From assembly GCA_004017275.1 (NCBI GenBank), contig SAKE01000001.1, positions 248,001 through 312,000 of the forward strand: a stretch of DNA of 64,000 nucleotides. Direction: 5' to 3'. The notes below the pieces were generated by a model. That model did no database searches, was not told where the DNA came from, and was given only the letters and a program-made list of their open reading frames with translations. This DNA is from Mesorhizobium sp. (lineage in GTDB: Bacteria > Pseudomonadota > Alphaproteobacteria > Rhizobiales > Rhizobiaceae). Position 1 is the first letter of the stretch. Every line of letters starts with the position of its first letter. The position numbers and the translations under genes were made by a program. Below are positions 50,470-63,435 of the stretch, one piece after another.

Positions 50470-51019
50470 CCCGGAACTCCTCCAAGTCGAACCGGACGCC
50501 AAGATACTGTACTCGCAAGATGCCATTGGGGTCTACGAGCGACGTCAACAAGGTATGGTCAACCTCTCCGTTCGCCGCCTTCTTCGCGATGACCCCGTAT
50601 TTCCGTCCCACCTCATGGACGACCGCCGGATCACCGGTAAGAAACGACCAGCCCTTCAGATCGGCGCCAAAATTCTGCGCATATTCCTTCAAGACATCGG
50701 GCGTATCGCGCTCCGGGTCGACGGTGATCGAAACGAAGGCGATTTGGGGTCCGAACGCACTACCCAACTTTTCCTGCACGCTCGCCATATGGGCGGTCAG
50801 CATCGGGCATACGTCGGTACAGTACGTATAGATGAATGAGACGGCGACCACCTTGCCGCGAAAGTCGTGCAGCGACACGCGCACATTGTCCTGCGATAGC
50901 AAGGTAAAGTCCGGCGCCTGTCCGATCGTCGGCAGGCGCTCGTCGTGCGGCGCGTCGTGCGCGTGTGCCGGCCCGGCCATCAACGCCAGCACCAGTGCGC
51001 ATGCCGGCCAGCAACTCAT
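50435..51019 (-). CDS. SCO1/SenC-family periplasmic copper/thiol protein
   Basis: 194 aa with a signal peptide (SCWPACALVLALMAGPAHA). The thioredoxin-like fold has the metal-binding TYCTDVCPMLTAHM (CxxxC) near residue 75 and the third ligand His in VDHTLLTSLVD near residue 165. SCO proteins deliver copper to cytochrome oxidase CuA or act in thiol redox sensing. No cytochrome oxidase gene is nearby. It is instead between the binding-protein array and the kinase, overlapping the last binding-protein gene by ATGA. A role in loading or sensing metal or thiol state for this system is therefore inferred. Confidence 0.9.
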   Translation of the reverse strand: MSCWPACALVLALMAGPAHAHDAPHDERLPTIGQAPDFTLLSQDNVRVSLHDFRGKVVAVSFIYTYCTDVCPMLTAHMASVQEKLGSAFGPQIAFVSITVDPERDTPDVLKEYAQNFGADLKGWSFLTGDPAVVHEVGRKYGVIAKKAANGEVDHTLLTSLVDPNGILRVQYLGVRFDLEEFRDDLVSLLDESK

Positions 51020-52023
51020 GTCTTCAACTCGCGTTTGAGTTCGTTGAGGAAGCGCCAGTCCGTGCCGTTGGCGATGATCGTCTGCGGCGTTGACCTGATC
51101 ATGCCTGCCTTTTGAAGTCGCAGCGAATAGAAACGAACGGTGTCCTCTGAATCGTACTCGCGCCACTTCCGGTATGGCACCTCGGTAAGCGCCCCCAAGG
51201 CATAGTCGTAGTTGGCGGTGAAGTTCCGTTCGACCAGCCGCCTCGCCGCAACGTCGGGCTGCCCCGCGCACAAGTCCGCCGCCTTGAGGATGGCGCGCAG
51301 AACGCGCTTGGAGGCAACCGGATGCTCGCGCACGAAATCCGCGTTGCCGGCAAGCAGGCAGCAGAAGTATGCCGCCCACGGTTGATCCAGCGTGCTGTTT
51401 ATGAGCACGCGGCCAATGCCCCTGGCTCGAAGCTCTTGCGGCTCCGGCGGGAAGCCGAGGAAGGCGTCGACTTCGCCGCTTGCGTACAGCTCCTTCGCCC
51501 GCACTTGGGGGTCGCTTACCCAGTTGATATCGCGCAGCGGGTCGATCCCGACGTAAGCTGCCATGCTGGCAAGGAACAAATACGGGCTCGACCCCAGCGC
51601 CTGTACGCCGATTCTCTTGCCCCTCAGGTCACGGAGGCTATCGATCCCCGGCCGGACGAAAAGCTCGAAGCAGCCGGGATGGACGCCACTCAACAGGGTC
51701 AGTGCCTTGCCCTGGTCGATAGCCACGATCGACGACGTGATAAAGTTCAAGCTGAAGTTGACATTCCCGCTAGCCGTGTTTGCCGTAGTCGCGGTCCCCG
51801 GCTCGGACTCTACATATTCGATCTCGTCGAAGCCTTCCGCGTGAAGCAGTTCCTCGGCTACGTATTGCGGCGCGATGCAAACGCCAGGGATCTTGGCCAA
51901 GCGAATGCGCGTGGTCTCCGGCGGTGGCTCGGCAAGAACTCGAGTTGGAGCGCCGACGAGGCTTGCGGCGCCGGCAGCCGTCAGGCCGGCCAGGAAACGG
52001 CGTCGGTTCTGAATGATCCGCAT
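51016..52023 (-). CDS. Tat-exported NMT1/NrtA-like periplasmic binding protein, array member 6
   Basis: 335 aa. Twin-arginine signal NRRRFLAGLTAAGAASLVG with cleavage near VLAE (residue 31). Type 2 periplasmic-binding fold of the NMT1/ThiY/SsuA kind: ICIAPQY-like start (GVCIAPQYVAEELLHAEGF), VHPGCFELF, RGKRIGVQALGSSPYLF, EVDAFLGFPPEPQEL. Cysteines fall at 49, 118, 221, 222 and 252, and are shared with the five neighbours. C-terminus TDWRFLNELKRELKT. It is the array member nearest SCO1 and overlaps it by ATGA. Ligand unknown. Confidence 0.9.
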   Translation of the reverse strand: MRIIQNRRRFLAGLTAAGAASLVGAPTRVLAEPPPETTRIRLAKIPGVCIAPQYVAEELLHAEGFDEIEYVESEPGTATTANTASGNVNFSLNFITSSIVAIDQGKALTLLSGVHPGCFELFVRPGIDSLRDLRGKRIGVQALGSSPYLFLASMAAYVGIDPLRDINWVSDPQVRAKELYASGEVDAFLGFPPEPQELRARGIGRVLINSTLDQPWAAYFCCLLAGNADFVREHPVASKRVLRAILKAADLCAGQPDVAARRLVERNFTANYDYALGALTEVPYRKWREYDSEDTVRFYSLRLQKAGMIRSTPQTIIANGTDWRFLNELKRELKT

Positions 52024-52052
52024 GTCACGCTTCCTCCCAGGACAAAGCAGGT

Positions 52053-53060
52053 TCAGATTTTCATCTCACGCTTGACCTCGTTGAAAAGGTGCCAGTCCGT
52101 GCCTTTCGCGATGATCTCGTTTGGGCTCGACTTGACAATCCCGGCTTCATGCAGCCGCAGCGAGAAGAACCTCATCGTGTCCTCGGGATCGAAGTCGCGC
52201 CAATTGGCGTATGGGACCTCGCGGAGCGACTGCACGGCGTAGTCGTATTGTTCGGTGTGTCCGCCATCCACCAGGAGGCGAGCCACCCGTTCCGGTTCGG
52301 CCGCGCAGATGTCGGCCGATTTGATGATGGCCCGGATGACGCGCTTGGTGGCAGCTGGATTTTTCTCGGCATACGCGGCGTTGACCGCCAGCATGCAGCA
52401 GTAATATTGCGACCACGGCCGGTCCTTGGAACTGTCGAGGATGACGTGGCCGACCTTGCGGGCGCGGAGGTCTTGAGCCTCAGGCGGAAAAGCCAGGAAG
52501 GCGTCGACCTTGCCCTCGGCGAAGAGGTCTGCCGGCTTTGCCTCGCCGACGATCCATTCGATGTCGCGTTGCGGATCGAGGCCGACATAGGTTGCCATGG
52601 CACTGACGAAGATATGCGGATCCGACGATAGATTGCCGCCGACGCCGACTTTGCGGCCCTTGAGATCCGTGATGCCATTTATGTCCTCACGTCCGAACAA
52701 CTCGTAGCAACCGACATGCACTCCGGAGATCACCTTGATCGGGGCGCCAGTGTCGACCGGAATGATTAGGGCCGTGGCAAAGTCAATGCCGAAGTCGATG
52801 TCGCCGCGCGCCAGCATCTCCGTCTGGGCGATGCCGGCCTCGGCGGCCACGAAGCCGAAATCTGACAACCCCTCTGCGCGGATCAGATCCTCGGCGACGT
52901 ACTGCGGAGCGATGCAGATACCAGGCGCCGCCGCAAAGCGGGCGATCGTGGTTTCAGGTGCCGCTTCGGCAGCGGCCGCGTTGTGGCCCTTCGCAAATCC
53001 CGCGGCTGCGAGCGCAGACAGGCCTGTGAGGAAACGGCGACGGTTGTGGACAATCTGCAC
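52053..53060 (-). CDS. Tat-exported NMT1/NrtA-like periplasmic binding protein, array member 5
   Basis: 335 aa. Signal NRRRFLTGLSALAAAGFA. All five array cysteines are kept: GICIAPQY (49), HVGCYELFG, YYCCMLAVN and SADICAAEP. It is one of the more divergent members (alanine-rich AAAEAAPETT after the signal, GVGGNLSSDPHIF where others have QALGSSP), so ligand preference may differ. It is 29 bases upstream of the 51016 gene with a plausible GGAGG-type site. Confidence 0.9.
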   Translation of the reverse strand: MQIVHNRRRFLTGLSALAAAGFAKGHNAAAAEAAPETTIARFAAAPGICIAPQYVAEDLIRAEGLSDFGFVAAEAGIAQTEMLARGDIDFGIDFATALIIPVDTGAPIKVISGVHVGCYELFGREDINGITDLKGRKVGVGGNLSSDPHIFVSAMATYVGLDPQRDIEWIVGEAKPADLFAEGKVDAFLAFPPEAQDLRARKVGHVILDSSKDRPWSQYYCCMLAVNAAYAEKNPAATKRVIRAIIKSADICAAEPERVARLLVDGGHTEQYDYAVQSLREVPYANWRDFDPEDTMRFFSLRLHEAGIVKSSPNEIIAKGTDWHLFNEVKREMKI

Positions 53061-53106
53061 GACTCTCTCCTTCCCTTGAAAAAGGCACCGCGCGTCGGCG
53101 ATAGGT

Positions 53107-54114
53107 CTACGTCTTCAGCTCTCGCTTTAGCTCGTGGAGGAACCGCCAATCGGTACCGTCTGCGATGATCTTCTGGGGACTCGACCTGATCATGCCGGCC
53201 TCTTGAAGTCGCAGGGCGTAAAACCGGATCGTGTCTTCCGGATCGTATTCTCGCCACTTGTTGTAAGGCACGTCGGTCATCGTCTGCAGTGCATAGTCAT
53301 AGTTAGCCGTGAATCCGTCATCGACGATCTGTCGTGCGACACGCTGTGGCTCAGCGACGCAAAGGTCCGCGGCTTTCAGAATGGCGCGGACGACGCGCTT
53401 GGTCGCGATCGGGTTGTTGTGAACGAAGTCGGCGTTGCCGGCCAGCATGCAGCAAAAGTACTGCGACCAGGGACGATCGACGGCGCTGTTGACTACTACG
53501 TGGCCGATGTTTTGGGCGCGCAGTTCCTGGGGCTCGGGCGGAAAGCCGAGAAACGCATCGATTTCTCCCCGCTTAAAGAGCGTCATTGGTTTGATGGTCG
53601 GGCTGGTGACCCAATTTATGTCCTTGACTGGATCCAGGCCGACATAGGCCGCCATGCCCGTCAAAAATACATGCGGACTCGAGCCCAAGGCTTGGACGCC
53701 GACACTCTTGCCCTTCAGGTCTCTAATCCCGCTGATACTCTCGTTTCCGAATAGCTCAAAGCAGCCAGGGTGCACCCCGGCCAGCACAGCGATCGGACCC
53801 CCTGCATCCATAGTCACCACAAGCGGCGCGGCGAAATTCAATGTAAAGTCCACCTGGCCACTCGCGACCGCGTCAGATTGCCCCGCGGCTGTCTCAGTCA
53901 TTACATAGCGAACTTCAGTGAAGCCCTCCGCATGCAACAGCTCCTCGGCAACATATTGAGGCGCGATGCAGATGCCCCTGATCTTTGCAAGGCGGACGCC
54001 CGTCGTTTCCGGCGGTGGCTCCGCGGGGAGCGATTGCCGGACCCCAATGAGGCTTGCGGCGCCGGCTGACGCAGCGCCGGCTAGGAAACGGCGGCGGTTC
54101 TGGATGATCTGCAT
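53107..54114 (-). CDS. Tat-exported NMT1/NrtA-like periplasmic binding protein, array member 4
   Basis: 335 aa. Signal NRRRFLAGAASAGAASLIG, almost identical to the next gene upstream. Cysteines at 49 (GICIAPQY), 118 (HPGCFELFG), 221-222 (YFCCMLAGN) and 252 (AADLCVAEP). QALGSSPHVFLTGMAAYVGL and EIDAFLGFPPEPQEL are closest to the 51016 member. The C-terminus TDWRFLHELKRELKT is conserved. The 46-base spacer to the next gene contains the CTCTCCTTCCCT (plus strand) ribosome-site block seen before each member. Confidence 0.9.
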   Translation of the reverse strand: MQIIQNRRRFLAGAASAGAASLIGVRQSLPAEPPPETTGVRLAKIRGICIAPQYVAEELLHAEGFTEVRYVMTETAAGQSDAVASGQVDFTLNFAAPLVVTMDAGGPIAVLAGVHPGCFELFGNESISGIRDLKGKSVGVQALGSSPHVFLTGMAAYVGLDPVKDINWVTSPTIKPMTLFKRGEIDAFLGFPPEPQELRAQNIGHVVVNSAVDRPWSQYFCCMLAGNADFVHNNPIATKRVVRAILKAADLCVAEPQRVARQIVDDGFTANYDYALQTMTDVPYNKWREYDPEDTIRFYALRLQEAGMIRSSPQKIIADGTDWRFLHELKRELKT

Positions 54115-54160
54115 AAGCCTCTCCTTCCCTCGATAGGGCGCACGGCGTGTTGGCGATTGC

Positions 54161-55165
54161 CTACGTCTTCAACTCGTTCTTCAGTTCGTTGAGGAAACGC
54201 CAGTCGGTGCCCTGTGCCAGGAGCTTACCGGGGGTGCTCTTGAGCATCCCGACCTCGCGGAGGCGCAAGGCGTAGAAGCGCAGGGTGTCCTCAGCGCTAT
54301 ACTCACGCCAACCGTAGGGGATCGCCTTCAAGACCTGGAGGGCATGGTCATAGCGCTTAGTATAGCCCTGCTCCACCAAGAACTGGGCGGACTGCTCGGG
54401 CCCGCTGGTGCAGAAATCGGCCGCTTTCAAGATGGCGCGGAGGGCGCGTTTGGTGGCCACCGGATTCGTGCGGACGAACTCCCGGTTCCCAGCCAGCATG
54501 CAGCAGAAGTATTGCGACCAGGGCCGGTCCACGGTGCTGCTAATCACTACATGGCCGATCTGCTGCTCCCGCATCTCCTGCGGTTCGGGGGGAAAGCCCA
54601 GATAGGCGTCGATCTTCCCCTCACTTAGGAGCCGGATGGACTCGGGGCCCGGATGCGTGACGAAGTGTATGTCCTTATGGAGGTCCAGGCCCACATAAGC
54701 CGTCATACTGGCGAGAAAGACGTATCGGCTGGAATCCAGCGACGGCACGGCCACGGTCTTCCCCTTGAGGTCGCGGATTGCTTGGACGCGATCGGTCCCG
54801 AACAGCTCAAAGCAGCCGACGTGGAGACCAGCCAGGATGACGATCGGATCCCCAGCCTCCAGATGGAGAAGGAGCGGGGCCGCGAAATGCGCACTGAGGT
54901 CGGCTTCACCGGAGGCGAGAGCCGGCGCGATGTCTGCGGTCCCCCTCTTTTGGAGGTAGTGCACCTCGGTGAACCCTTCGCTGCGCAGCAGTTCTTCGGC
55001 TACATACTGGGGGGCCTGACAGATGCTGGGAATCCGGATGAGCCGGATCCGCGTCGTCTCAGGTGGTGGCTCAGAGGGGAGCGATTGGCGGACCCCAACT
55101 AGGCTCGCGGCGCCGGCTGACGCAGCGCCGGCTAGGAAACGGCGGCGGTTCTGGATGATCTGCAT
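54161..55165 (-). CDS. Tat-exported NMT1/NrtA-like periplasmic binding protein, array member 3
   Basis: 334 aa. Signal peptide nearly identical to that of 53107 (GAASAGAASLVGVRQSLP) while the mature part is clearly more different (SICQAPQY, VPSLDSSRYVFLASM, KIDAYLGFPPEPQEM), which suggests exchange limited to the gene ends. All five cysteines are present (FCC, GCFELFG, AADFCTS). Codon choice looks more G/C- and GG-ending than in neighbours, so it may have a different history. Confidence 0.9.
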   Translation of the reverse strand: MQIIQNRRRFLAGAASAGAASLVGVRQSLPSEPPPETTRIRLIRIPSICQAPQYVAEELLRSEGFTEVHYLQKRGTADIAPALASGEADLSAHFAAPLLLHLEAGDPIVILAGLHVGCFELFGTDRVQAIRDLKGKTVAVPSLDSSRYVFLASMTAYVGLDLHKDIHFVTHPGPESIRLLSEGKIDAYLGFPPEPQEMREQQIGHVVISSTVDRPWSQYFCCMLAGNREFVRTNPVATKRALRAILKAADFCTSGPEQSAQFLVEQGYTKRYDHALQVLKAIPYGWREYSAEDTLRFYALRLREVGMLKSTPGKLLAQGTDWRFLNELKNELKT

Positions 55166-55210
55166 AGCCTCTCCTTCCCTTGATAGGGCGCACGGCCTGT
55201 TGGCGATTGC

Positions 55211-56221
55211 CTACGTCTTCAACTCGCGCTTCAGTTGATTGAGAAAGCGCCAATCCGATCCAGTGGCGATTATCTCTTGCGGGCTCGACTTGATCATGCG
55301 CGTTTCGTGCATGCGCAACGCGTAAAAGCGCATGGAGGCTTCGGCATCGTAATCCCGCCATCTGTCGTACCGGATGTCGCTAAGCGTTTGCAGCGCGAGT
55401 TCGTAGCTGGGGACGAACCCTCGATCGACTAGCTGCGCTGCGCTCCATGACGGATCTGAGGCACAGAGGTCGGCGCCCTTGAGGATGGACCGCAGGACGC
55501 GCTTAGTCGCTACCGGATATCTGTCGACATAATCCGCAGTCGCAGAAATCATGCAGCAGAAGTGCTGCGACCACGGCGGGTCGGTGGTTGAGTTCAGGAT
55601 CGTATGGCCCACTCTTCTGGACCGGAGTTCCTGCGTTCGGGGTGGTTGGCCGAGGAATGCATCGTATTTTCCTGCCACGAAGCCTTCCGCAAAATTCTGT
55701 TCTTCGATGACCCATTCGATGTCGTTGACCGGATCGAGCCCAACATAGGCGGCCATCAGAGAGACCAACACGTATTGCGGCGAATCGAGCGTAAAGACCC
55801 CGACCCGCCGTCCCCGCAAGTCCGAAATTTGTTTGACGTTGTCGTTGGCGATCAGTTCGAGGCACCCGGAGTGCAGGCCGGTTAGCACCCTGATCGGCAC
55901 GCCTGCATCGATCGACGCCAGATGAATCGGGACGTAATTCACACTGAAGTCCGTCTCGCCGTTTGCGATCCACGTCGAATGATCAACCTTCCTGTCGCCT
56001 TGCACATAGCGGACATCGGTGACCCCCTCGGCGCGCAGCATCTCTCCGGCGAGGTACAGGCCTGCCCAACAATAGGCCCCGCCGATGTACCGGGGTAGGC
56101 GGACCGAGGTGGTCTCCGGCAGCGGCTCAGCCCAGGCTTGCGTCGAGGTGCCGATAAGGCCCGCGGCGCCGGCTGACACAGCGCCGGCAAGGAAACGGCG
56201 GCGGTTCTGGATGATTTGCAT
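55211..56221 (-). CDS. Tat-exported NMT1/NrtA-like periplasmic binding protein, array member 2
   Basis: 336 aa. Signal NRRRFLAGAVSAGAAGLIG. The first cysteine block differs (GGAYCWAGLYLAGEML, Cys 51), and HSGCLELIA, HFCCMISAT and ADLCASDP keep the other four. The ligand-binding loops (FTLDSPQYVLVSLMAAY, KYDAFLGQPPRTQEL) diverge from the 51016/53107 pair. Ends SDWRFLNQLKRELKT. Shares a duplicated spacer (CGCACGGCCTGTTGGCGATTGC, broken as CGCACGGCCTG and TTGGCGATTGC) with the neighbour. Confidence 0.9.
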   Translation of the reverse strand: MQIIQNRRRFLAGAVSAGAAGLIGTSTQAWAEPLPETTSVRLPRYIGGAYCWAGLYLAGEMLRAEGVTDVRYVQGDRKVDHSTWIANGETDFSVNYVPIHLASIDAGVPIRVLTGLHSGCLELIANDNVKQISDLRGRRVGVFTLDSPQYVLVSLMAAYVGLDPVNDIEWVIEEQNFAEGFVAGKYDAFLGQPPRTQELRSRRVGHTILNSTTDPPWSQHFCCMISATADYVDRYPVATKRVLRSILKGADLCASDPSWSAAQLVDRGFVPSYELALQTLSDIRYDRWRDYDAEASMRFYALRMHETRMIKSSPQEIIATGSDWRFLNQLKRELKT

Positions 56222-56255
56222 CGGACGGTTCTTCCCTTTGGCGTATTGGCGATGC

Positions 56256-57263
56256 CTACGTCTTCAGCTCCCGCTTCAGCTCGTCGACGAAACGCCAATC
56301 CGTGTTTGCGGCAAGGACTTCGTTGGGACTCGTGGTGATCATGCCCAACTCCTTCATGCGGAGGGCATAGAAGGTCAACGTATCGGCTGGGTCGTACTCG
56401 CGCCACACACCATAACGCGCCTCGGCAAGGGTACGTAGGGCGTAGTCGTAGCTGCTGGCGAAACCCTTCTCGACCGAACGCCTGGCTGCCGCCTGAGGAT
56501 CGGAGACGCAGAGGTCCACAGACTTGAGTAGGGCGCGCAGCGCCCGTTTCGCCGCCACCGGGTACTGGCTGACGAAATCGGCGCTGCCATAGATCAAACA
56601 GCAGAAATATTGCGACCACGGGCGGTCGGTCGCCGTCACCAGGATCGGGTGGCCGATCTTGCGATCGCGTGCGATCAGCGGATCGGGCGGTGTCGCGAGA
56701 AACGCGTCGATCTTGCCTTCTGCGAGCAGTTCCAGCGCATTGGAAGTCTCAACCCATTCGATGTCTCTGTCAGTGTCGACTCCGACATTAGCGGCCATCA
56801 ACCTGAGGAGGACATGCCCCAAGCCGTTCAGCTGGTTGATGCCCACCCGTCTGCCGCGCAGGTCTTTCACACTTGTGACGTGCAGACCGGCCAACAACTC
56901 GATGCAACCGACATGCAAGCCGGCGAGGACCTTCAGTGGCGTTCCGCTCTCGATCAGCTGCAGGATTATCGGAGCGTCATAGGATTCGATATCGACTTGG
57001 CCGTCCGCCACCAATCTCAGCCCTTCGGCGTCACTGGCCGGTTGGACGAATTCGACCTCGGTGAAGCCTTCGGCACGCAACAATTCTTCAGCTGCGTAGA
57101 ACGGCGTCACACAGTCGGAAACCTTAGGATAAACCGAGGTGCGGATGCGGGTAACCTCGGGCGGCGGCTCCGCCCAGGCTGGCTTCGGGGCGCCGAGGAG
57201 GCCTGAGGCGCCGGCTGCCGCTGCGCCGGCCAAGAAGCCGCGGCGGTTCTGGATAATCTGCAT
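56256..57263 (-). CDS. Tat-exported NMT1/NrtA-like periplasmic binding protein, array member 1 (promoter-proximal)
   Basis: 335 aa. Signal NRRGFLAGAAAAGASGLLG keeps the twin arginines. It is the most divergent member: SDCVTPFYAAEELL (Cys 51), HVGCIELLA, YFCCLIYGS and SVDLCVSDP still keep all five cysteines. Specificity regions (INQLNGLGHVLLRLMAAN, KIDAFLATPPDPLI) differ strongly from the others. As the first gene of the operon, its upstream region (57264-57830) should hold the operon promoter. Confidence 0.9.
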   Translation of the reverse strand: MQIIQNRRGFLAGAAAAGASGLLGAPKPAWAEPPPEVTRIRTSVYPKVSDCVTPFYAAEELLRAEGFTEVEFVQPASDAEGLRLVADGQVDIESYDAPIILQLIESGTPLKVLAGLHVGCIELLAGLHVTSVKDLRGRRVGINQLNGLGHVLLRLMAANVGVDTDRDIEWVETSNALELLAEGKIDAFLATPPDPLIARDRKIGHPILVTATDRPWSQYFCCLIYGSADFVSQYPVAAKRALRALLKSVDLCVSDPQAAARRSVEKGFASSYDYALRTLAEARYGVWREYDPADTLTFYALRMKELGMITTSPNEVLAANTDWRFVDELKRELKT

Positions 57264-57830: not shown

Positions 57831-58067
57831 GTGACGGTACTTTTTGAGATCGGCGATGGCGCCGTCGAACGCCACGAAGTGGGAAAAGTTGGCCGATTGG
57901 GCCCGATAGGTGGCGAAACCTCAATATATTTTTTTGTTGCAATTTTCCTTTTAAAATCAAAAGCGTATCTTTTTAACGGGCCGTGCGGCAGCTTTCGGTG
58001 CCGCAAACAAGAAAAAGCCCAGCTAGATCAATGACTTAGCTAGGCTAAAATCAATCGAGTGGGAGTG
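57831..58067 (+). repeat. Dispersed repeat copy 4, left module
   Basis: GTGACGGTACTTTTTGAGA at 57831, CCGATTGG-CCGATAG-TGG-GAAACCTCAA, TTTTCCTTTTAAAATCAAAAGCGTA (split as TTTTCCTTTTAAAATC and AAAAGCGTA) and AATCGAGTGGGAGTG at the end. The segment before the end (GCCGTGCGGCAGCTTTCGG and after) differs from copies 1 and 2. Directly after the last block begins a ketopantoate reductase fragment. Confidence 0.7.
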
Positions 58068-58472
58068 ATTCAGGCCTATCCGGGCGTATCGGCCGGCGCC
58101 GCGTCGCTGGAGAACCAGCTTGTCGACGAATGTGTTTCGGTGGCGACCGCTGCGGGGCATTCGCTTGACGATGGTGAGGTCGCGAAGGTTGGGGCCTATG
58201 TCACCCACGCGGGGTCGACCATCACGACCTCGATGCTGCGCGACATCGAGAACGATTCACCGATAGAAGCGGATCAGATAATTGGCGACATGATGCGGCG
58301 GGCGTCATCGTTCTCGTTGCCCGCCCCGATACTCTCGATGGTGCACGCGCACCTTGGGCGATCGCTGCAAGGGCCGTTTTCGACCCTGTTCGATTGGACC
58401 GTCGAGAACATTGACGTGATTCAGAACTGCCAACGCAGCTATGACGCGCGCGAAGATCAGATAGCGGCCTGA
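58059..58472 (+). pseudogene. C-terminal fragment of a 2-dehydropantoate 2-reductase (PanE/ApbA family)
   Basis: About 137 codons open from a GTG inside the repeat end. AYPGVSAGAASLENQLVDEC, then YVTHAGSTITTSMLRDIEND, EADQIIGDMMRRASSF and LPAPILSMVHAHL match the C-terminal helical domain of ketopantoate reductases. The NADPH-binding N-terminal two thirds are missing and replaced by repeat sequence. The last 30 residues are not family-like. It is most likely a dead fragment left by a rearrangement at the repeat. Confidence 0.7.
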
Positions 58473-59020
58473 ACGGTGGCGAGCGCTCATCGAATGCCTC
58501 TTGCCAGCGGGAGAAGGCAAGCTCCGAAAGAAGACGGCGCGGTTGGTTGGGATCTATGCAGTAGGCCTGAGAGCAGTCTTGGGATGCTCGTCAGCTTCGC
58601 GCTAATCCCAGCCGGATGTCGATCCCTGGTACGAAGCCTCGGAGCATGGCGCCCATGGTCCGAGGAATCGTAACATCAAGCCCATGCGATGTCGTTAGGA
58701 CGGCTTCGCCGTCTGTAATCTATTCGGCGCCCGTGATGGACGCAGTTAGTCCTGAGATCCAGTCATAGAGAACAATAGATCACGAAAGGTGGAAGCCCTC
58801 ACGACGACCAATCGGGAATTAGCGGGCTATGGCGTACAGATAGGACGGTTACGTTGTTGTTGAACTAGTCGCCTCGCGCGTGCTTGGTTCACGGAAATCG
58901 TGAGCGCAGCGAGTGTTCGCTTCGGGAATTGTGGCCTCCGCGATGGCTCCAACCCCGACAGGCCCCCGATAGCGAAGGACAAACTACCGATCGGTAAAGA
59001 TCTTGACAGATTAGCTGCGC
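58473..59020. other. Intergenic stretch without supported gene
   Basis: About 550 bases. Short frames only, none recognisable. A small hairpin GACGGC-TTC-GCCGTC lies at 58699-58713 without a T-run. Near the right end, AGATTAG and CTAATCT (about 59008-59028) form a dyad at the 3' end of the double TetR gene and may help terminate it. Confidence 0.4.
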
Positions 59021-60250
59021 CTAATCTTTACTGACCGATAAATCGGCAGATGCAGTCCACATGGCCAAGCTGCTCTCAACCAGCGCCTCAAGCTCACTTT
59101 GGCTTGCGCCAGCGCCTCCCTGCATGAGGATGCCGTGCATCAGGGATTGGACAAAGCGCACGAGACCTTCGACATTGACGGTCGGCAACAGGTCGCCGTC
59201 GCGTTTGGCCCGCTCAAACCGGGCCGCGAGCAAGTCGCGCCCGATGGCCTGGCGCCTGAGGACTTCGTTGCGAATGGGCTGCGCCTCATCACCTTGCATT
59301 GCGTTAAGAACCATCAGGCAGCCGCGCGGTTGCCCCTCTGCCTGTTGATCGCGTAGCGCTCCCCTGAGCAGCGCTTCGAAAACGCCTCGCGCCGTCGGAG
59401 CTTGGAGCGCTTCAGTTAGGTAGTCTTTACGAAGTGACTGATAGAGGTCGAGGGCCTTGAAAAACAATGCTTCTTTGTTGCCGAATGCGGCGTAGAGACT
59501 GGGTCGAGTGATTCCCATCGCCTCAGTGAGATCATTCAACGATGCGCCCGCGAAACCCTTGGTCCAAAAGACCTTCATGGCAGCATCGAGCGCTGTGTCG
59601 GCGCTGAACCTTCGCGGGTCGCGGCCTAACTCGCCTGCCGGTGCCGCCCCCCTCGTTGAAGCGCTCGCGGCGGCCGCAACGTCGCTGATCGCCCGCCAGG
59701 CCGCCATCGCCTGTTCGGCACCCTCTCGCAAGTCGTCATGTGGCGCGCCGCCGGCGGCTTTCATGGCGAGGCCGCCGAGAACCGACGTCACATAGCTCGC
59801 CAGCCCTGAGGCATCAGCGTCCACAGGGAGTTCGCCACTCCGTTTCGCCTCTTCGAACCGGTCTCGCAGTTTCAGTTCTGCCGATTGGCGGCGATGAAGC
59901 AGGGCAGCGGGAATGTCGGCATTCTCACTGCCCATCGCCAAGCCCGCATGAACGAGTATGCGGCTGGACTCCTGCGCTGGCGAGGTCGTCAGCAAGCGCT
60001 TGACGACTTCTTCGGCCTTGGGGGCTGTGAGCGCCCACTCCCAGTGCTCGTCCTCGCGCCCACTACAGCGGCCGAGAACAGCGTCGAAAAGCCCGCGCTT
60101 GCTTCCGAAAGCCGCGTAGATGCTGGGAGAGTTCAAGCCCATTGCGGCCGTCAGTTCCGCCATGGTTGAGCCGTCGTAGCCCCGGCGACCGAAGACGTCC
60201 GCCGCGCGATCTAGCACTTCGCTTTCTTCGAACGCGCGGGGGCGGGCCAT
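59021..60250 (-). CDS. Double TetR/AcrR-family regulator (two complete TetR units in one protein)
   Basis: About 409 aa from ATG 60250 (GGAG eight bases upstream; an ATG 11 codons earlier is weaker). Unit 1: AADVFGRRGYDGSTMAELTA with SPSIYAAFGSKRGLFDAVLG at about residues 15-55, then a helical domain to about 195. Unit 2: AAMKVFWTKGFAGASLNDLT with RPSLYAAFGNKEALFFKALD at about 220-260, then a second helical domain to the end. Ordinary TetR proteins are about 200 aa and bind as dimers, so this chain may act as a covalent pseudo-dimer. It is divergent from the enoyl-CoA hydratase gene. Confidence 0.88.
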   Translation of the reverse strand: MARPRAFEESEVLDRAADVFGRRGYDGSTMAELTAAMGLNSPSIYAAFGSKRGLFDAVLGRCSGREDEHWEWALTAPKAEEVVKRLLTTSPAQESSRILVHAGLAMGSENADIPAALLHRRQSAELKLRDRFEEAKRSGELPVDADASGLASYVTSVLGGLAMKAAGGAPHDDLREGAEQAMAAWRAISDVAAAASASTRGAAPAGELGRDPRRFSADTALDAAMKVFWTKGFAGASLNDLTEAMGITRPSLYAAFGNKEALFFKALDLYQSLRKDYLTEALQAPTARGVFEALLRGALRDQQAEGQPRGCLMVLNAMQGDEAQPIRNEVLRRQAIGRDLLAARFERAKRDGDLLPTVNVEGLVRFVQSLMHGILMQGGAGASQSELEALVESSLAMWTASADLSVSKD

Positions 60251-60386
60251 TGACAGCACTCCATTCTGTAACATACATAACATAATCAGCTTTGGTCATC
60301 CGCCAATCGCGACGTGAGACATGGGCCATTTTGTAGCAGGCGTTAGGCCTGCCTGGCTAGATAGTCAGCAAACTAGGAGGTAAAAC

Positions 60387-61175
60387 ATGAGTTCGTTCCG
60401 CTTCGAGCAACACGGTGCGGTGGGCAAACTGATCTTGCTCGGTGATGCAGACAGCGAGCCAGGGTCCGACTTTCCCTCGTCGCTGCGGGCCGCTGTTCGC
60501 CAGGCATATGCAAACGACATCCGCATCCTTCACTTGACGTCCGCGTCCGGCAACATCGCCGTAGCAGACGATCTGGGCGCCATCGGTGACAAGGGCTCGA
60601 AATTTCTCGAAGCGTTTGCGGCCGACATCCTGGCTTCGATCCGTCTCATCGAGGAACTGCCCGTCCCCACGGTTGCTTCGGTAGCAGGGATGGCCTTGGG
60701 CGGCGGTTTCGAACTGCTCCTGGCGTTCGATTTCCTGGTCGTCGCAGAGTCGGCGATGCTCGTCCTCCCGGAAGTGTCGGTCGGCTGCATTCCAATGGCA
60801 GGCGGGGTGCAGCGGCTCGCCGATCGAGTCGGCAAAACACTCGCTACTCGCTTCGTCCTGCTTTCGGAGCCAATTTTCGGAAAGATCGCAGTCGATCTGG
60901 GTATCGCAACCCATTCAGCGCCTGACGGCAAGTTGGAGGAGATCTCCGACGAACTCGTGCGGCATCTCGCGACAGGGCCGACCCTGGCGTACGGCAAGGC
61001 GCGCACGCTCATCCACACCTGGGCTACCGGCGGCGTTGCGGCTGCCGACATAATCTCCACCCGCCTCGGCGCTGGCATCCTCGACACCAAGGATGGCGCA
61101 GAGGGAATGGCCATTGCGGTCGCGGCTGTGCGCAAACACGAGCCCATCCCGAAGATCCAGTTCGCAGGGAAGTAA
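60387..61175 (+). CDS. Enoyl-CoA hydratase/isomerase family protein
   Basis: 262 aa, with a strong AGGAGG site. The crotonase fold shows VASVAGMALGGGFELLLAFD (oxyanion-hole Gly) and LPEVSVGCIPMAGGVQRLAD, where the acidic residue of hydratases is expected. The N-terminal part lacks the usual clear FSAGAD-type oxyanion motif (here NIAVADDLGAIG), so activity may differ from a classical hydratase. Divergent from the double TetR and probably controlled by it; a 6+6 dyad GCAGGC-N5-GCCTGC lies at 60336-60352 between them. Confidence 0.82.
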   Translation: MSSFRFEQHGAVGKLILLGDADSEPGSDFPSSLRAAVRQAYANDIRILHLTSASGNIAVADDLGAIGDKGSKFLEAFAADILASIRLIEELPVPTVASVAGMALGGGFELLLAFDFLVVAESAMLVLPEVSVGCIPMAGGVQRLADRVGKTLATRFVLLSEPIFGKIAVDLGIATHSAPDGKLEEISDELVRHLATGPTLAYGKARTLIHTWATGGVAAADIISTRLGAGILDTKDGAEGMAIAVAAVRKHEPIPKIQFAGK

Positions 61176-61379: not shown

Positions 61380-62351
61380 ATGACTTTCGTGGATCGGAAT
61401 AGATCGCTGAAGCAGACCTTTGTAGAAACCAATGGCGTCAAGCTGAACGTTGTTGAGGAAGGCGATGGCCCGGCTGTGCTGTTCGTTCACGGCTTTCCTG
61501 ACGGATGGCGGGGCTGGCGCCGGCAGATGGCGGCAGTCGCGGCCGCGGGTTACCGTGCGATATCGTTCGATACGCGTGGCTACGGCGATAGCTCCAAGCC
61601 TGAAGACGCCGCGCTTTACACGGTTCTCTACCATGTAGGAGACCTTGTCGGCATCCTCGCGAAACTCGGGATCGAGCGCGCGACCCTGGTCGGCCACGAC
61701 TTCGGTGCGACGGTGAGTTGGAACGCGGCGGTGATGCGTCCGGATCTGTTTGACGCGGTCTTCGGCCTCAGTGTCCCTCCGGTGCTACCGGGTGCGGGGC
61801 CCAGCATGCTCGAAATGCTGAAGGCCGCCGGCAAGGAGGGAGCCTTTTATATGTTCCGCCACATGAAGCCGGAGGCCGACCAGGAGTGGGCGGATGCGGC
61901 CACGACTTTCTCGGGCGCTCTCTATTGGATGTCGGGGTTGCCCGATGCTTCCGAAGCATGGGGTCCGATGGACCCAAGCAAAGATATGCACCGGCCATCC
62001 CCGATCGGCATCCCGCCCTTCGCTGACCGCGAGGACGCCGAGACGATGATCGCAGGCTTCCAGCGTGATGGCTTCCACGGTCCACTGAATATCTATCGCG
62101 GCATGCAACCCTATTTCGACCAAGCAAAAGCATTTGCCGGGGCGAAGATCCGACAGCCAGCCTTCTTTGCGTATGGCACAGCAGACAGCATGGTTAAGAT
62201 GCGAGCTTTGAACGAGGAAGATCTCAAGCCGGCCGTGCCAAACCTCCAGGGGTTCCTACCACTTGAGGGCGTCGGGCACTGGCCTCAGCTCGAGGCGTCT
62301 GAGGCAGTGAATGAGGCGCTGGTCGCCTTTCTCAAAAGGAGGAAGGTTTAA
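61380..62351 (+). CDS. Alpha/beta hydrolase, epoxide hydrolase-like
   Basis: 323 aa. Oxyanion motif VHGFPDGWRGWRRQM near 36, FDTRGYGDSSKP near 63, nucleophile Asp 107 in GHDFGATVSW, and the catalytic His in GVGHWPQLEA near the C-terminus. The order and FDTRGYGDS block are typical of epoxide hydrolases; haloalkane dehalogenases are close relatives. It lies between the crotonase gene and a LysR remnant, so it may be part of a ring-opening or detoxification route, unproven. Confidence 0.85.
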   Translation: MTFVDRNRSLKQTFVETNGVKLNVVEEGDGPAVLFVHGFPDGWRGWRRQMAAVAAAGYRAISFDTRGYGDSSKPEDAALYTVLYHVGDLVGILAKLGIERATLVGHDFGATVSWNAAVMRPDLFDAVFGLSVPPVLPGAGPSMLEMLKAAGKEGAFYMFRHMKPEADQEWADAATTFSGALYWMSGLPDASEAWGPMDPSKDMHRPSPIGIPPFADREDAETMIAGFQRDGFHGPLNIYRGMQPYFDQAKAFAGAKIRQPAFFAYGTADSMVKMRALNEEDLKPAVPNLQGFLPLEGVGHWPQLEASEAVNEALVAFLKRRKV

Positions 62352-62779: not shown

Positions 62780-63358
62780 TCAATACGCTGCCTTCTTGGC
62801 ATCGTTGCTCGACGGATTTGTCAGGATGCCGCTCGCGACGATGTGAAGGAGGTGATCGGCCCGTGGCGCGAATGAGGGTTGGTCGACCGCCCAGCCGAGA
62901 GCCGTTATCAGGGCGAACAGGTCGTCCCCACTCATATCGGCGCGCGCCGTTCCCTCGCCCTGAGCATGGAGCAGTAGTCGCGCGCCTGCTGCGTGCACCG
63001 CTGCGCATGAAGCATAAAGAGCGGAGTCCGGGTTCGTGTGGGCGGCCGCCATCATGGCGACAACGCCCCTATAGCTTTGGGTGAATGCCACCAATTCTCG
63101 AAACCAGGAGAGAAGTGCTTTGTCAGCCGAAGTCGACGCTTCGAGTTCGTCTGCCTTCTGCGTCAGTGCGTCCAGATTGGTACACAGCAACGCTTCGAAC
63201 AGGGCTTCTCGCGTCGGGAAATGACGAAGCAGTGTGGCCAAGCCGACGCCGGCACGGCGGGCAATATCGCGCATCGACGCGTCGGTACCATGCTCGGTGA
63301 CGACGTCACGCGCGACCGTGAGAACTTGGCTGCGATTTTTTTCTGCGTCGGCTCGCAT
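62780..63358 (-). CDS. TetR/AcrR-family transcriptional repressor
   Basis: 192 aa, start ATG at 63358; a longer frame to 63418 runs through the operator palindromes. Helix-turn-helix GTDASMRDIARRAGVGLATL and FPTREALFEALL. The C-terminal ligand-binding domain is the SBP_bac/TetR_C-like kind (VVAMMAAAHTNPDSALY, GDDLFALITALGWA). It is divergent from the SDR gene, and three near-identical palindromes lie between them, so it probably represses both. Confidence 0.9.
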   Translation of the reverse strand: MRADAEKNRSQVLTVARDVVTEHGTDASMRDIARRAGVGLATLLRHFPTREALFEALLCTNLDALTQKADELEASTSADKALLSWFRELVAFTQSYRGVVAMMAAAHTNPDSALYASCAAVHAAGARLLLHAQGEGTARADMSGDDLFALITALGWAVDQPSFAPRADHLLHIVASGILTNPSSNDAKKAAY

Positions 63359-63374
63359 GGACTGCCTTGATAAA

Positions 63375-63435
63375 TGGATCGGTGATCCATATATGTGGAT
63401 CGGCGATCCGATTGCCAAAATGGATCAGTGATCCA
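63375..63435. promoter_or_regulatory. Three operator-like palindromes TGGATC-N3-GATCCA
   Basis: TGGATCGGTGATCCA (63375-63389), TGGATCGGCGATCC (63396-63409) and TGGATCAGTGATCCA (63421-63435). The outer two are full 6+6 dyads; the middle has one changed end base. Start-to-start spacing is 21 and 25 bases, close to two helical turns. They fill the promoter between TetR (62780) and SDR (63500) genes. Confidence 0.8.

Follow-up and report, generated by a model that had tools for sequence, protein, structure and literature searches.

A double TetR gene of rhizobia joins two repressor subfamilies and lies among two classes of candidate operators

Does a polypeptide with two complete TetR units act as one repressor or as two? 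The question is raised by a gene of Mesorhizobium sp. in a 64,000-bp stretch of contig SAKE01000001.1 (assembly GCA_004017275.1, positions 248,001 to 312,000), which we call the window. Double TetRs are infrequent, with 204 predicted in Actinomycetes, and the structure of Mce3R from Mycobacterium tuberculosis (PDB 9b7y) has been called the first of such a protein (PMC11667970). Because double TetRs of the Mce3R kind are known, the fusion alone is not new. The architecture is known, but the operator layout is unlike that of the solved Mce3R case: in the rhizobial lineage both ancestral operator classes are recognisable around the fused gene. Whether a TetR fusion yields a single asymmetric repressor or a bivalent protein of dual specificity is directly testable in this lineage, and the bivalent form, if true, would lend itself naturally as a template for switches that take two inputs and form loops. 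A literature search, with subscription journals mostly outside its reach, found no report of this gene or of rhizobial double TetRs. GplR1, considered as a possible double TetR, is not so described in the literature passages found.

A conserved gene encoding two TetR units

The original prediction of two complete TetR units in one chain holds for a real and conserved gene. Both helix-turn-helix strings quoted there were found in the open minus-strand frame 60250-59021 (Table 1), Pfam places TetR_N twice in the protein (whole-protein E 7.5e-26), and orthologs carry the same arrangement. An alignment of the two units spans 194 columns at 32.5% identity (blastp E 1.1e-29). According to dN/dS values of 0.07-0.21, both units evolve under purifying selection (six orthologs compared), whereas the linker of about 20 codons gave 0.25-0.81, above the units in 6/6 orthologs. 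An AlphaFold model contains two TetR folds of nine helices each, with a mean pLDDT of 72, a pTM of 0.45 and no confident arrangement; in the linker, residues 193-211 have a pLDDT of less than 50. The TetR frames listed for the window's genome number 43 and hold 44 TetR_N matches (150 of 179 candidates scored); the double tetR gene alone has two.

Table 1. Features of the double tetR locus; positions are those of the window.
Feature	Position	Strand	Remarks
Double TetR gene	59021..60250	-	409 aa + stop; open frame, Pfam, orthologs
N unit	residues 1-192, 59675..60250	-	TetR_N, tree position, model helices
N unit helix-turn-helix	residues 9-48, 60107-60226	-	
Linker	residues 193-212, 59615..59674	-	low model confidence, weaker constraint than the units
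C unit, CifR-like	residues 213-409, 59024..59614	-	TetR_N + TetR_C_13; CifR E 2.9e-31; tree
C unit helix-turn-helix	residues 217-256, 59483-59602	-	
D1, C-type candidate operator	59026..59043	-	within the gene's last codons, 20 bp before the stop codon
D2, C-type candidate operator	58982..58999	-	core TACCGATCGGTA; 24 bp past the last sense codon
U1, N-type palindromic candidate operator	60266..60283	-	just upstream of the double tetR start
U2, inverted repeat GCAGGC-N5-GCCTGC	60336..60352	.	between the divergent genes; class uncertain
Enoyl-CoA hydratase/isomerase family gene, divergent	60387..61175	+	PF00378 E 3.3e-23; likely target
Epoxide hydrolase-like alpha/beta hydrolase gene	61380..62351	+	8hm5 E 3.8e-99; possible target

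Intact double genes were found at eight other Rhizobiales loci, 83-98% identical to the window gene (98% in Rhizobium sullae), and in Paraburkholderia, where the protein is 50% identical. As the gene is intact at all of these, the joining is not an assembly error, the artefact against which the original prediction advised a check; the intact copies include a one-contig genome (G090) and complete plasmid records. The start at 60250 (MARPR) is common to all ten aligned double proteins, and a further in-frame ATG lies upstream at 60283. No conserved start codon that would give an intact second unit was found among the aligned orthologs: ATG182 is absent from several of them, and Met225 falls within the first helix of the C unit. 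Adjacent but separate tetR genes do exist elsewhere, for instance in Pantoea, but with the same open frame at ten loci and a second unit that lacks a conserved start, a sequencing or assembly error that joined two genes, or separate translation of the second unit, is extremely improbable. We regard the fusion and its conservation as established.

The double lineage was found in Rhizobiales, mainly rhizobia, and in Paraburkholderia. Among 98 other genomes of the genus one carries the same gene (95% identity, E <= 1e-40). The order sample gave matches in 3 of 396 other genomes, none of them double (E <= 1e-45), and searches with the N unit matched in class (288 other genomes, E <= 1e-25) and phylum samples (397 other genomes, E <= 1e-28) with no further double gene. 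On plasmids, 64 of 72,556 records matched at E <= 1e-25, three with a double gene (Neorhizobium galegae, Rhizobium sp. NZLR1 and Paraburkholderia largidicola). At least five named genomes, among the best 80 of 542 relatives, are double (Rhizobium sp. LC145, R. phaseoli, Rhizobium sp. CCGE 510, Bradyrhizobium sp. 21 and R. sullae); no double gene is present in the remaining 75. A plasmid search with the Paraburkholderia protein covered it by at least 80% in 19 records: the three known double genes, 14 short matches and two from Pantoea. The 14 span less than 720 bp and hence hold one unit; of the 16 non-double records, one Pantoea record and the Methylobacterium record were inspected individually. 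The latter (H4) was rejected as a double gene, being a standalone TetR matched by both halves, and the Novosphingobium matches H48 and H49 were likewise standalone TetRs.

Our Rhizobiales set comprises nine loci including the window. By sequence they fall into approximately three lineages (the window, L009, L015, L020 and L024; L016, L021 and L022; L023), so that a count of nine does not stand for as many independent events. In Neorhizobium galegae (L015, 6001-7227) the gene is a mosaic, with DNA identity to the window of 98.3% in the N unit and 83.2% in the C unit; the change sits near the linker, as if the C half had been swapped by recombination. L009 has a milder, opposite pattern (N unit 90.8%, C unit 98.4%).

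Two origins for the two halves

The original prediction explained the likeness of the halves by internal duplication, a hypothesis that was fixed before the tree was built. In a 56-row tree the N halves, including that of Paraburkholderia, form one clade (support 100/99) that adjoins standalone TetRs of the L018/L120-L124 type (98/77). The C halves form a weakly supported clade (81/72) within a mostly Sphingomonadales TetR clade (100/98); an earlier 66-row tree left the Paraburkholderia C half unresolved within the Sphingomonadales-type clade. A tree with all 11 halves forced into a single clade is worse by 54.7 log units (AU p 2.69e-5). Since the halves group with two different standalone subfamilies and a common clade is rejected, we reject internal duplication and read the gene as two subfamilies fused; this dual origin, too, we take as established. 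An adjacent tetR pair of Pantoea was considered as the unfused ancestor and found unsupported: one of its units was placed in a tree, where it has a long branch and is remote from the N and the C halves alike.

The closest subfamily to the N unit (N-like; L018, L101-L106, L120-L130) has a related upstream palindrome; it has two upstream sites, whereas the fused loci keep one clear site. The closest subfamily to the C unit (C-like, mostly Sphingomonadales; L019, L025-L099, L118, L119) has the same operator class and pair spacing as the fused loci. Unlike the fused loci, it has a single unit and often lies with RND efflux genes. Co-directed RND genes come after tetR at 50 of the 77 C-like loci tested and at the query locus L019; at 15 of the 18 N-like loci an RND adaptor-like gene is encoded near tetR on the opposite strand. 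Neither arrangement was found in the nine fused loci tested (all but the window) with the L019 adaptor and permease as queries. Judged by their gene neighbours, the standalone relatives look like efflux regulators.

The recognition helices were compared at the two positions that precede a PS motif common to both classes. All ten C halves have T-R, and C-like standalones have T in 77/78 followed by K or R in 78/78. N halves have N (nine) or S (one) followed by S (eight) or A (two), and N-like standalones have N in 13/18 followed by P in 14/18. In sequence, the C halves thus retain the signature of their class exactly; the N halves retain N and have diverged further. Helices a8-a9, the usual TetR dimer face, have an identity of 0.37 to their own class in both halves, compared to 0.53 and 0.60 among the standalones.

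Candidate operators on both sides of the gene

Palindromic 18-bp motifs were trained de novo on the standalone relatives only, with one mononucleotide shuffle control each. The N-like upstream motif cTGTAgtGnnCacTACAg reached a log-likelihood of 165 compared to 30 when shuffled (17 loci), and the C-like downstream motif cTATACcgnncgGTATAg reached 718 compared to 30 (78 loci). C-like loci have a related site also upstream of tetR (764 vs. 40), and N-like loci a different, weaker motif downstream (55 vs. 29). N-like site pairs are 50-52 bp apart in 18/18 loci (the 17 and one added), many of which are closely related to one another; C-like pairs are 45-50 bp apart in 65/78 loci (those with a second site scoring >1). 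The two operator types have a common framework, and among the standalones the C motif was found in 6/18 N-like upstream regions and the N motif in 25/78 C-like downstream regions. A 16-bp version of this framework had been drawn by eye on the same data, and the trained motifs were therefore relied on instead. Background in the fused loci away from the candidate sites, at p < 1e-4, was 6 C, 3 N, 3 N/C and 2 C/N matches in 96,317 positions; L020, L021 and L022 each have one further match elsewhere.

Upstream of the gene, at -33/-32 relative to its start, U1 is N-type in all nine Rhizobiales loci, with p values between 1e-6 and 7e-5. Its C-motif score is negative and its N/C hybrid score lower in 9/9, which argues against the asymmetric operator of the original prediction at this site. 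Allowing up to one mismatch, the U1 pattern has a single match in the window's genome (control 0). U2 has perfect arms in 7/9 aligned upstream regions and one mismatch in L015 and L024. It is weak by the N motif (best p 5e-4), and its distance to U1 of 63-67 bp is unlike the 50-52 bp of N-like loci.

Downstream, the C motif matches D1 at p < 1e-4 in 9/9 loci and D2 in 8/9 (L009 misses), with D2 24-30 bp past the last sense codon. The D1-D2 spacing is 44-50 bp (44 in 5/9), compared to 45-50 in the standalone relatives. At these sites part of the asymmetric-operator idea may hold: a hybrid N/C motif scores highest at D1 in 5/9 loci and a hybrid C/N motif at D2 in 4/9, that is, at 9 of 18 sites. 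The N motif also reaches p < 1e-4 at D1 in 4/9 and at D2 in 3/9 loci. The leucine codon of D1 is CTA in one locus and TTA in the other eight; of the 845 leucine codons in 21 chosen ORFs of the window, 5 are TTA. Residues around this leucine vary (D/E/R/G before; S/P, V/I/L/S/T and S/G after), most of all at the codon over the palindrome centre. D2 retains TTTACCGATCGGTA in 7/9 loci, L009 and L022 being different. At fourfold sites the window gene has an identity of 65-68% to its counterparts at the four loci that make up the other two lineages. The presence of class-specific sites conserved around the fused gene is an established feature of the Rhizobiales loci; in Paraburkholderia no D sites were found, and the upstream match is C-type instead of N-type.

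The pattern TACCGRYCGGTA occurs at three places in the window's genome: at D2, within a coding frame of unrelated function, and in the interval that separates a further TetR gene from a divergent MFS-like gene. A reversed control pattern occurs at six; as it is the commoner one, the D2 core is not enriched genome-wide, and its weight comes from position and conservation. The last of the three places (G000:C30 near 92158; L143 5130-5220) shares TACCGATCGGTA and has a second TACCGGTCAGTA site. The TetR beside it carries a TKPSLY recognition helix like that of the C-like class. This would fit a link between helix and operator; as a caveat, this TetR might itself bind D2.

Is there a gene for D2 to control? 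Only L016 of the nine loci is annotated, and downstream genes were judged from ORFs. By this measure an evident co-directed gene directly follows D2 in L023 only; in L015 and L024 a possible ORF comes about 213 bp further on. That the D sites are kept although eight loci have no evident downstream gene suggests that they have an auxiliary function, for instance in looping or roadblocking.

Neighbouring genes

The divergent enoyl-CoA hydratase gene lies upstream in 8/8 other Rhizobiales loci (72-97% identical; in L009 the alignment covers the first 93 residues only, at 90% identity), and in Paraburkholderia a divergent NAD(P)-dependent alcohol dehydrogenase takes its place. The epoxide hydrolase-like gene, whose closest solved structure is the epoxide hydrolase 8hm5, is present in 4/8. 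The stretches available for these loci differ in length from 4.2 to 13.2 kb, so gene absences weigh less than presences. In Bradyrhizobium (L023) the hydrolase is the gene just downstream of D2, 60 bp past the double tetR stop.

CifR of Pseudomonas aeruginosa (PDB 6nsn) is homologous to residues 208-398 of the double protein, in the C unit. CifR is derepressed by epoxides and reportedly has two binding sites, a finding ascribed to Ballok in 2012. It is a single TetR unit, whereas in the double protein a CifR-like unit is fused to the end of another TetR; the two loci also have different enzyme genes. Like the locus studied here, cifR has a divergent target operon with an epoxide hydrolase (PMC8244358).

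Mode of action

How might the two units be deployed? The best reading of the sequence comparisons is a candidate dual-specificity, possibly two-headed, repressor of itself and of the divergent hydratase gene. We infer that the N unit would recognise N-type palindromes, U1 and perhaps U2, between the double tetR and hydratase genes, and would repress both from there, and that the C unit would recognise the C-type pair D1 and D2 at the 3′ end of its own gene. The difference between the site types makes a homodimer with N-N′ and C-C′ pairing the likeliest working form, and it would present two DNA-binding heads. Such a dimer could bridge the two ends of its own gene, a distance of about 1.25 kb, in a loop, and might be released when either domain takes up its ligand. 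An epoxide or similar electrophile would be a fitting ligand for both the CifR-like C unit and the neighbouring hydrolase, and the sensing of two ligands, suggested in the original prediction, is possible. We give an even chance to this reading as a whole, in which repressor genes from two TetR subfamilies fused in frame long ago and both halves still function, N acting at U1 and C at D1/D2. The two-headed form, with separate specificities, N-N′ and C-C′ pairing, bridging of its own gene ends and an operator in its last codons, is proposed tentatively, at somewhat below even chances.

The foremost alternative, which we hold to be doubtful, is a single-chain pseudo-dimer like Mce3R: an omega-shaped molecule that would place one helix-turn-helix on each half-site of quasi-palindromic or hybrid operators. 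In Mce3R both units of a chain come together as a pseudo-dimer, a single asymmetric DNA-binding unit that occupies an asymmetric site; a symmetric assembly, to which the two-headed form would correspond, is drawn as an alternative (figure legend) and was then found inapplicable to Mce3R, whose halves, too, belong to distinct subgroups (PMC11667970). Mce3R is autoregulated (PMC11667970), and it resembles the double TetR also in the lipid-type catabolic genes nearby or in the regulon. The operators differ: Mce3R binds 25-bp nonpalindromic sites, whereas the double tetR gene has candidate palindromes of two classes on its two sides. Among 50 Foldseek matches listed, Mce3R is the sole chain that aligns over approximately the whole length, and a flexible linker would permit a pseudo-dimer. 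The divergence of a8-a9 could reflect a remodelled interface, which would favour it as well, and so would the common operator framework and the hybrid scores at D1 and D2; a monomeric pseudo-dimer, as first envisaged, is possible by analogy with Mce3R. Against it, U1 is an N/N palindrome at every Rhizobiales locus, and two site classes on two flanks would be superfluous for such a molecule. The structural comparison does not help it either: the pTM of the model is low, with no confident arrangement of the four-helix bundle that a Mce3R-type repressor would form within its chain, its superposition on Mce3R is poor (TM 0.37, rmsd 16.3), and the fold search of the PDB points to CifR at the level of the unit, with a poor full-length fit to Mce3R. 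The best stretches shared between Mce3R and the units score 28.3 and 20.1 bits, CifR and 2i10 being far closer. Judged by these alignments, the double lineage is not orthologous to Mce3R.

It seems unlikely that only one unit still binds DNA, with the other serving as a dimerisation or ligand module and its sites being relics or belonging to another TetR. The Rhizobiales N unit is without six residues and a GCL motif that are present in the ligand domain of the Paraburkholderia N unit, a Pfam TetR C-terminal model (TetR_C_13) exceeds the cut-off in the C unit only, and another TetR of the same genome adjoins a D2-type core. These points are outweighed by the conservation of both helix-turn-helix regions, by purifying selection on both units, and by the persistence of U1 and the D sites despite the low fourfold identity between lineages.

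Other genes in the window

Beyond the epoxide hydrolase gene lies a second TetR gene (62780-63418, minus strand) with an SbtR-like C-terminal domain (PF21597), which is also present in R. sullae (L024, 94%). On the other side of the double gene, 58059-58472 (plus strand) matches the C-terminal domain of ketopantoate reductase alone (PF08546) and is probably a gene remnant. Further along, 51016-57263 (minus strand) holds a striking tandem array of six consecutive paralogs of about 335 aa, NMT1/SsuA-like substrate-binding proteins, of which the member scanned matched PF09084 and a twin-arginine signal.
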